Source of the DNA: Candidatus Polarisedimenticola svalbardensis
GTDB taxonomy: Bacteria; Acidobacteriota; Polarisedimenticolia; Polarisedimenticolales; Polarisedimenticolaceae
Reading direction: 5' to 3'
NCBI GenBank assembly: GCA_014764515.1
Contig: JACXWD010000020.1
Location: 1 to 52,654 of the forward strand
DNA length: 52,654 bases
The stretch's first letter is position 1. Every line of letters begins with the position of its first letter. Below the pieces are notes generated by a model that ran no database searches, was not told the DNA's origin, and saw only the letters and a program-made list of their open reading frames with translations. Positions 23,384 through 39,785 of this stretch are shown here, piece by piece. Both the position numbers and the translations under genes were made by a program.

Positions 23384-25045
23384 TTACTTGCCGGGGCACT
23401 GTGCCGCGATGGCGGGATCGATCCCCTTATCGCCATAGGCACTGTCGAACTTCGAGGCGAAATCGTTGGCGAGCTTTTTCGCCCTCGTCTCGTAGTCGTT
23501 TTTGTCCTTCCATGTGTTCTTCGGTACGAGCACATCGGACGGAACGTTGGGGCATGAATTCGGAACGCTGACATGGAACAGCGGATCGTAGGTGTACTCG
23601 ACATTCTCGAGATCGCCATTGAGCGCCGCTTGCACGATCGAGCGGGTCAGCGTGATGTCCATGCGCTTGCCTTCGCCGTAGGCGCCGCCGCTCCAGCCGG
23701 TGTTCACCAGGTACACGCTGGCTCCGTGACCCTCCATCATCGTACCCAGCAGCTTGGCATAAACTTCAGGTTGCCTGGGCATGAACGGCGCTCCGAAGAA
23801 CCGGGAGAAGGTCGACACCGGCTCGGTCACGCCGGTCTCGGTGCCGGCCAGCTTGCTGGTATAGCCCATCAGGAACCAGAGCATCGCCTGGTTGGAATCC
23901 AGCCGGGACACCGGGGGCAGAACACCGTTCGCATCGGCAGTCAGGAACAGGATCGTCTTCGGGTGGCCGCCGACAGGGGGGGTCTTGATGTTGCTCAGGG
24001 AGGCCAGCGGGTAGCTGCCCCGGGAGTTGGGCGTCAACCGTTCGTCGTCGACGTCGAATTCGCCGTCGGGGTACATCATGCAGTTTTCGATGATGGCGCC
24101 GTGTTCGAACGGGTCGGCCTTCTTGAAGACCGCGTTGTAGATTTCCTCTTCCTTGACCGGATGGAGATTGATCAGCTTGGCGTAACAGCCGCCTTCGAAG
24201 TTGGCGATGCCGTCACCGGACCAGCCGTGCTCGTCATCGCCCAGCAGGGCGCGGGATGCATCGGCCGACAGGCTGGTCTTGCCTGTTCCCGAAAGGCCGA
24301 GCAGGAGCGCGGTGTCTCCGTTCTTGCCTTCGTTGGCCGAGCAGTGCAGCGGCAGGATGCCTTCGGCGGGCAGGAGGTGGTTCATGACGGTAAACAGCAT
24401 TTTCTTCATGCTGCCGCAATATGCCGACCCGAACACGATTCCCAGGCGCTGGTCGAAGTCGGCCACGATCGCCATGTTGGAGGTGTTGCCGGCCGGCGTT
24501 TTCCGCATGCGTCCGTCGTAGCGGCTCCGTTCCAGTTTGTCGTAAGGCAGGCAGAGGAGCTTGAACCCGTGTCCGGCGAAACAGCTCTTATCCATGTCGG
24601 CAGGGACTTCACGGAACATGTTGTTGCAGAATAATGTGTGCAATGCGCGATCGGTAACCAGCTGTACCGGCAGTGCGTATTTGGAATCGGCGCCGACAAC
24701 GTATTCCGACTGGTAGATCTTGTCCTTGCGGGCCAGAACTTCCAGGGCGTCATCCCAGATCATTTTGAATGTTTCAGGGTCCATCGGGATGCAGTTGGGA
24801 GAGGTCCAGTCGATATCCGCCTCCGATTCGGGGCGTCGGACCATGTAGGTATCCTTGGGGCTCCGGCCGGTTGACTCCGGCGGAGTCCAGGTCGCCACGG
24901 CGCCGCACGCCGATTCAATCGCCTCGTTGTTTTCGATGATGTCCCGAACCAGTTCCCGACGACTGAGGTTCCGAAGCACCTGGGGATGGCGGTCAGCCAT
25001 TTGTTGGAGATCCTGGGTGAGTTCCATCTCTTCCGTCAGCTCCAT
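23384..25045 (-). CDS. pckA: phosphoenolpyruvate carboxykinase (ATP)
   Basis: A 553-residue enzyme, the expected size (E. coli about 540). The P-loop GLSGTGKTSLSAD lies near 255; substrate and metal sites are in RSRYDGRM, GSAYCGSMKKMLFTVMNHLL, HGWSGDGIANFEGGCYAK and NTGWSGGAYGEGKRM. It converts oxaloacetate and ATP to PEP and CO2, the entry to gluconeogenesis; a GTP-type enzyme would not have this P-loop. Monocistronic, with a strong terminator directly downstream. Confidence 0.96.
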   Translation of the reverse strand: MELTEEMELTQDLQQMADRHPQVLRNLSRRELVRDIIENNEAIESACGAVATWTPPESTGRSPKDTYMVRRPESEADIDWTSPNCIPMDPETFKMIWDDALEVLARKDKIYQSEYVVGADSKYALPVQLVTDRALHTLFCNNMFREVPADMDKSCFAGHGFKLLCLPYDKLERSRYDGRMRKTPAGNTSNMAIVADFDQRLGIVFGSAYCGSMKKMLFTVMNHLLPAEGILPLHCSANEGKNGDTALLLGLSGTGKTSLSADASRALLGDDEHGWSGDGIANFEGGCYAKLINLHPVKEEEIYNAVFKKADPFEHGAIIENCMMYPDGEFDVDDERLTPNSRGSYPLASLSNIKTPPVGGHPKTILFLTADANGVLPPVSRLDSNQAMLWFLMGYTSKLAGTETGVTEPVSTFSRFFGAPFMPRQPEVYAKLLGTMMEGHGASVYLVNTGWSGGAYGEGKRMDITLTRSIVQAALNGDLENVEYTYDPLFHVSVPNSCPNVPSDVLVPKNTWKDKNDYETRAKKLANDFASKFDSAYGDKGIDPAIAAQCPGK

Positions 25046-39359: not shown

Positions 39360-39417
39360 TTTTCAGGATCTCCAACCTCGGTCATAATGCCCAGCGTCAT
39401 AATCTGCCCTGCTGGGC
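39360..39417 (+). promoter_or_regulatory. possible promoter and leader hairpin of the histone gene
   Basis: TTTTCA (39360-39365) and CATAAT (39383-39388) are spaced by 17 bp. The octamer GTCATAAT is repeated at 39396-39403. A 7-bp stem GCCCAGC (39389-39395) with GCTGGGC (39411-39417) begins right after the -10 box and would lie in the leader. The histone Shine-Dalgarno AAGGAG is free of this stem. Confidence 0.3.
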
Positions 39418-39448
39418 GATCAAAACACCGAGTTAAGGAGTAACCGGA

Positions 39449-39700
39449 ATGGCGAAGAAGAAAGCCACGAAGAAAAAGGCCGCGAAGAAAAAGGCCACCA
39501 GGAAGAAAGCCGCTGCCAAGGAAATGCTGCTGGTCGGCAGCAAGACGAAGACCGCCCTCAAAGCGATGGACGTCAACGTCGCAGGCGACGCCCTCGAAGC
39601 CCTGAACGAGGTGGTTTACTGGTACATCCACCAGGCCGCCACCCGCGCCCAGGCCAACGGACGCAAGACTGTCCGCGGCCACGATTTCCTCTCGATGTAA
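39449..39700 (+). CDS. bacterial histone with lysine-rich N-terminal tail
   Basis: An 83-residue basic protein. Residues 2-24 are almost only Lys, Ala, Thr and Arg (KKKATKKKAAKKKATRKK). Residues 28-82 fit a minimal histone fold: helix 1 SKTKTALKAM, loop 1 DVNVAGD, long helix 2 ALEALNEVVYWYIHQAATRA, loop 2 with GRKTV and Asp79, and a truncated helix 3 (FLSM). The GRKT-x-x-x-x-D motif is the RKT/D signature of archaeal histones (HMfB GRKTIKAED). A short third helix is known from the Bdellovibrio histone Bd0055. Likely an abundant DNA-binding nucleoid protein; HU/IHF signatures are absent. AAGGAG lies 8 nt before the ATG and a strong hairpin follows the stop. Confidence 0.85.
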   Translation: MAKKKATKKKAAKKKATRKKAAAKEMLLVGSKTKTALKAMDVNVAGDALEALNEVVYWYIHQAATRAQANGRKTVRGHDFLSM

Positions 39701-39709
39701 ATCGACCGG

Positions 39710-39741
39710 ACGGCCCGTTCCCTCCGCAGGGGGCGGGCCGT
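39710..39741 (+). terminator. strong hairpin after the histone gene
   Basis: ACGGCCCG (39710-39717) pairs with CGGGCCGT (39734-39741); two T-G wobbles and three G-C pairs extend the stem inward to a 6-nt loop. It starts 10 bp after the histone stop. The following bases are pyrimidine-rich (CTTCGTCTTCCCC) but not a pure T-tract. It isolates the histone gene from the DUF481 gene. Confidence 0.55.
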
Positions 39742-39785
39742 GCCGCTTCGTCTTCCCCTATCCGGTATTCAAAAGGAGAACCGTC

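Follow-up and report, generated by a model that had tools for sequence, protein, structure and literature searches.

A putative FtF-type histone with a basic repeat tail in the genome of Candidatus Polarisedimenticola svalbardensis

Which type of histone is encoded by a short, free-standing gene of Candidatus Polarisedimenticola svalbardensis, and how would its fold and its tail act on DNA in a bacterium that also carries HU and IHF? The initial annotation, made from the sequence without database searches, had proposed a bacterial histone with a third helix cut short as in Bdellovibrio Bd0055, an H1-like tail rich in Lys, Ala, and Thr, a promoter-like region, and a terminator, and it had suggested a major nucleoid protein of this lineage. 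The window, i.e., the whole stretch of DNA that was analysed (52,654 nucleotides), is contig 81 of the 180 contigs of the 3.69 Mb host genome, in which the histone gene is present in one copy. Translation of the ORF at 39449-39700 (+) gives MAKKKATKKKAAKKKATRKKAAAKEMLLVGSKTKTALKAMDVNVAGDALEALNEVVYWYIHQAATRAQANGRKTVRGHDFLSM, a product of 83 aa. The following features are referred to below:

39360..39388 (+): promoter-like site TTTTCA-N17-CATAAT; 1 found vs 0.3 expected in shuffles
39435..39440 (+): ribosome-binding site AAGGAG, 8 nt upstream of the ATG; kept in the congener and in the Mor1 relative
39449..39700 (+): putative gene for a bacterial histone of the face-to-face (FtF) type, 83 aa, coordinates including the stop; from translation, orthologues, profile search, model, and structure comparison
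39449..39520 (+): N-terminal basic tail, residues 1-24, predicted to be disordered; from 13 K/R, model, and dN/dS
39453..39511 (+): 15-bp tandem repeat of ~3.9 copies, minisatellite-like, encoding KKKAx units; period-5 K/R pattern
39521..39697 (+): predicted histone fold, residues 25-83, with helices 30-38, 48-69, and 77-81; from model, structure comparison, and alignment
39703..39750 (+): GC-rich strong hairpin, terminator-like but without a U-tract, 3' of the stop; -34.8 kcal/mol, z -2.9

The protein is predicted to adopt a histone fold with a truncated helix 3. In the AlphaFold2 model, computed from an alignment of 57 natural sequences, pLDDT is ~96-98 over residues 31-80, and helices 30-38, 48-69, and 77-81 form the helix-loop-long helix-loop arrangement expected of such a fold, with the third helix reduced to one short turn. 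A single-sequence prediction had given one long helix with poor confidence and was superseded by this model. Using a profile built from 12 orthologues, HLp was matched at 1.2e-15, HBb at 2e-10, and HTkC at 3e-8, while archaeal nucleosomal histones were matched weakly; phmmer matched HLp of Leptospira perolatii at 3.7e-8. For the window protein alone, Pfam and PHROGs returned no family, and the NCBIfam archaeal histone stayed under its cut-off (16 bits vs 50). Foldseek placed HLp (9QT0/9QT1) at ranks 1-2. VIA-align 2 also placed it first (Z 9.2/8.9, rmsd 0.6 Å over 56-57 residues, 41-42% identity), and HTkC and HBb were the next structural matches with both programs. The match to HmfA/HmfB was weaker (Z 6.4-6.6, rmsd ~2 Å); these archaeal nucleosomal histones (HMf) have a polymerising four-helix-bundle interface and a full-length helix 3, the latter in contrast to the short turn of the window protein. 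The proposed histone fold, the GRKT...D loop, and the cut third helix are thus borne out by the profile matches and the model.

FtF histones carry two conserved residues, R48 and N52, where the two dimers meet; bacterial dimers such as Bd0055/HBb lack both (PMC11390915). In the HLp structure, R49, N53, and R55 are the conserved tetramer residues, and S14, K15, K17, K21, and R59 are reported to contribute 52% of the binding energy (PMC12701072). In the window protein, the residues equivalent to R49, N53, and R55 are R66, N70, and R72 (offset 17), which are invariant in 57/57 aligned sequences, as is R72-D79, the equivalent of the HLp clamp R55-D62. Likewise, R72, T74, and D79 of the RxTxxxxD motif are invariant. 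The DNA-contact residues correspond to S31, K32, K34, K38, and R76; S31, K32, and R76 are invariant, whereas position 34 is K/R in 57/57 and position 38 is K/R in 56/57 of the aligned sequences. Among orthologues from 11 other genomes of the class, S31, K32, N70, RKT(72-74), R76, and D79 are invariant. Because R66/N70/R72 and the equivalents of the HLp DNA contacts are conserved, we assign the protein by sequence to the FtF histones and not to the dimer type of Bd0055/HBb. The proposed likeness to Bd0055 therefore applies to the short helix 3, which both share, but not to the subfamily, as the FtF tetramer residues are present and, among solved structures, HLp comes closest.

HLp (L. perolatii; PDB 9QT0/9QT1/9QT2; PMC12701072), the most thoroughly studied member of this newly described family, wraps DNA as a tetramer. 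It shares with the window protein the one-turn helix 3, the tetramer residues, the RD clamp, and the main DNA-contact residues. It differs in having 63 residues with a short N-terminus, where a 24-residue KKKAx tail is found here. As HLp S52 and T61 (interface) and K54 are replaced by A69, H78, and G71, respectively, the interface and loop 2 differ in part from those of HLp. HTkC (9F2C), the archaeal FtF histone, has the same fold (rmsd ~0.9 Å) and is a tetramer, but it is archaeal and tailless and carries E at the position of N70.

The tail contains 13 K/R in 24 residues, which confirms the basic tail that had been proposed. Its period is 5 residues (KKKAT/KKKAA/KKKAT/RKKAA). The first 20 residues of the AlphaFold2 model show no helix and have a pLDDT of 52-61. 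Linker histone H1 and bacterial H1-like repeat proteins have a low-complexity basic segment rich in K/A/T, as the tail does; here, however, this segment is joined to a core histone fold. The winged-helix globular domain of H1 is absent, and the histone fold is the sole folded domain. Hence, the likeness to H1 is a compositional analogy only. The comparison with the congener gives a dN of 0.05 and a dS of 0.74 over few sites, which is why the tail appears to be maintained as protein. Among 80 named homologues, a K/R-rich tail of at least 18 residues precedes the fold in approximately 26, and approximately 35 have at most 12 residues before the fold, with start codons chosen by rule. L016 (Acidobacteriota) has an 82%-identical fold and a clear ribosome-binding site but no basic tail, and L071, another close homologue, also lacks it. 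By these sequence comparisons, the tail is a labile, optional add-on among relatives, and it would not be essential to the role of the fold because close homologues do without it.

According to Schwab et al. 2024 (PMC11390915), tails are common in bacterial FtF histones, mostly basic and without conserved sequence, and bacterial FtF folds are found chiefly in Spirochaetota, Planctomycetota, Bdellovibrionota, and Myxococcota. FtF histones of bacteria with positively charged tails are thus already known, and the window protein adds another example. It differs from the published ones in that its tail is a regular period-5 repeat and in its host, which belongs to the Acidobacteriota, a phylum unnamed in the main texts searched.

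Another locus of the host genome, L096 (G000:C33, contig end, ~23448-23709, minus strand), encodes a pure KKKAT/KKKVA period-5 repeat, which is H1-like and resembles the histone tail in style. Its ORF is cut by the contig end, and the N-terminus is missing. This similarity in repeat style could reflect a shared origin or convergence; as both sequences are of low complexity, an origin of the tail from an L096-type gene is indistinguishable from convergence.

We consider it probable that the protein acts as an FtF histone: a toroidal homotetramer would wrap ~60 bp of DNA, and its disordered basic tails would contribute further contacts that are not sequence-specific. Two monomers would form a histone handshake dimer. 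Two such dimers would be joined at both ends via R66, N70, and R72 (end of helix 2, loop 2, and helix 3), which would close a torus-shaped homotetramer. S31, K32, K34, and K38 of helix 1, together with the loop residues T74 and R76, would form a positive ring that holds the ~60 bp of wrapped DNA without sequence specificity. By homology to HLp, tetramer formation and DNA wrapping are likely. The four flexible KKKAx tails, with ~13 positive charges each, would add non-specific DNA contacts; judging from their composition, they would possibly neutralise charge or bridge or compact neighbouring DNA, as linker-histone tails do. The histone is expected to act as an architectural protein beside HU and IHF. 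A more far-reaching proposal, which we regard as unlikely, is that some Acidobacteriota combine core-histone wrapping and an H1-type repeat tail in a single protein. The tetramer would then both wrap DNA and condense linker DNA, changes in the 15-bp repeat would resize the tail, and, together with a separate H1-like protein of the same repeat style, a nucleosome-plus-linker system would exist alongside HU/IHF.

Two other modes of DNA binding have to be weighed against the wrapping tetramer. The protein could be a bacterial dimer histone that binds DNA as a dimer and bends it or coats it as a filament, like Bd0055/HBb (Bdellovibrio; 8CMP, 8FVX), which is likewise of bacterial origin and has the same short helix 3 and RKTxxxxD loop. 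HBb is also the second profile match, and its structure aligns with a Z of ~8.4 and an rmsd of 1.5 Å at 28% identity. We nevertheless hold this to be improbable, as HLp is the better match by every measure and the two interface residues that the HBb type lacks (PMC11390915) are present in the window protein and in all aligned homologues. Bd0055/HBb has no long tail. Still more improbable is a mainly H1-like role, in which the tail would be the working part, condensing DNA or binding polyanions, and the fold would serve only to dimerise or tetramerise it. The tail does resemble the KKKAx-repeat protein L096 of the same genome in period and composition. However, the conserved part is the fold with its DNA-contact residues, and many homologues have a short tail or none, among them the acidobacterial L016 with its 82%-identical core.

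A further alternative concerns not the biochemistry but the weight of the protein in the cell, and here the distribution of the gene comes in. The copy in the congener is 83% identical (E 2e-39) and that in the same family 78% (E 6e-33); the match in genome G004, of the same family, lies where Acidobacteria bacterium Mor1 (CP011806), a single-contig genome, has its match. Homologues in related Acidobacteriota have 59-83% identity, and most other close matches are from Acidobacteriota as well. Further homologues are found in Planctomycetota, Bdellovibrionota, Myxococcota, Elusimicrobiota, and Krumholzibacteriota. The gene is genuine and conserved far above chance, but its distribution is patchy: it is present in 14/60 relatives (E <= 0.001) and in just 9/297 sampled Acidobacteriota genomes (requested completeness at least 90%), and it is missing from some same-family genomes that are 97-99% complete. 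In addition, the host genome has four HU/IHF-family genes, namely L099 and L100 (C82), L101 (C149), and L102 (C143). Patchiness, absence from near-complete genomes, and the HU/IHF genes all favour a DNA-binding protein whose role is minor, accessory, or condition-specific over the major nucleoid component that had been suggested, a reading that is compatible with FtF biochemistry and to which we give somewhat less than an even chance. Codon usage points the other way. With a codon adaptation of 0.775, relative to an imperfect reference set of ribosomal-region ORFs, the histone is exceeded by just 1/39 window ORFs, lies above the simulated background (P ~0.01), and comes close to the 91-aa HU gene of the host (0.791), which is a weak hint that it is well expressed. 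Furthermore, the FtF histone of Leptospira interrogans ranks within the top 2% of genes by expression (PMC11390915). As four HU/IHF-family genes coexist with it, the histone would not be the sole DNA organiser, unlike what has been suggested for Leptospira; L. perolatii lacks HU, whereas HU and IHF are both present here.

By appearance, the two genes on contig 82 form an IHF-like pair; the other two encode an HU of 91 aa, whose codon adaptation is high, and a divergent HU-like protein of 97 aa that contains an insertion.

The few bacterial histones known have been studied mostly in Bdellovibrio and Leptospira, and tailed FtF histones in Acidobacteriota, including Mor1, would now be added to them. 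Tailed and tailless homologues with a near-identical fold offer a natural comparison for tail function in a bacterium with HU/IHF.

The proposal of a free-standing gene is supported. A promoter-like site is present at 39360-39388, and both of its hexamers, TTTTCA and CATAAT, are identical in the congener. As to the terminator, the strong hairpin at 39703-39750 is present but the U-tract of a terminator is absent. Hairpins 3' of four homologues (L017, L016, L024, and L023) are equally strong and differ in sequence. In every homologue folded, the histone stop codon is directly followed by a very strong GC hairpin without a U-tract. For a conserved structure of the 5' leader, the z values of -1.8 and -1.0 did not reach significance. 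In several of the loci L005-L012, a candidate TGCTACC(T/A)AT-like motif resembling an extended -10 lies ~60-110 nt upstream of the start.

The neighbouring genes encode a response regulator/TonB protein, a protein that weakly matches SMP-30-like proteins, DUF481 and MscS proteins, and a member of the arginyl-transferase family. Their order around the histone gene is the same in the congener, but neither the Mor1 region nor any other retrieved locus showed it; hence, the neighbours are uninformative on the function of the histone.

A tree of the fold (88 sequences, 56 columns) was mostly unresolved, with phyla mixed. A phage histone was considered and is unlikely because the search for phage relatives found none. 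In other families of the class (genomes G015 and G016), L013 and L014 encode another singlet histone type, which is divergent (LIISKSRTK...ANKRKTLKPQDL) and lacks the final F, and L015 is an HBb-like histone. From these loci, several bacterial histone types appear to coexist in the class.
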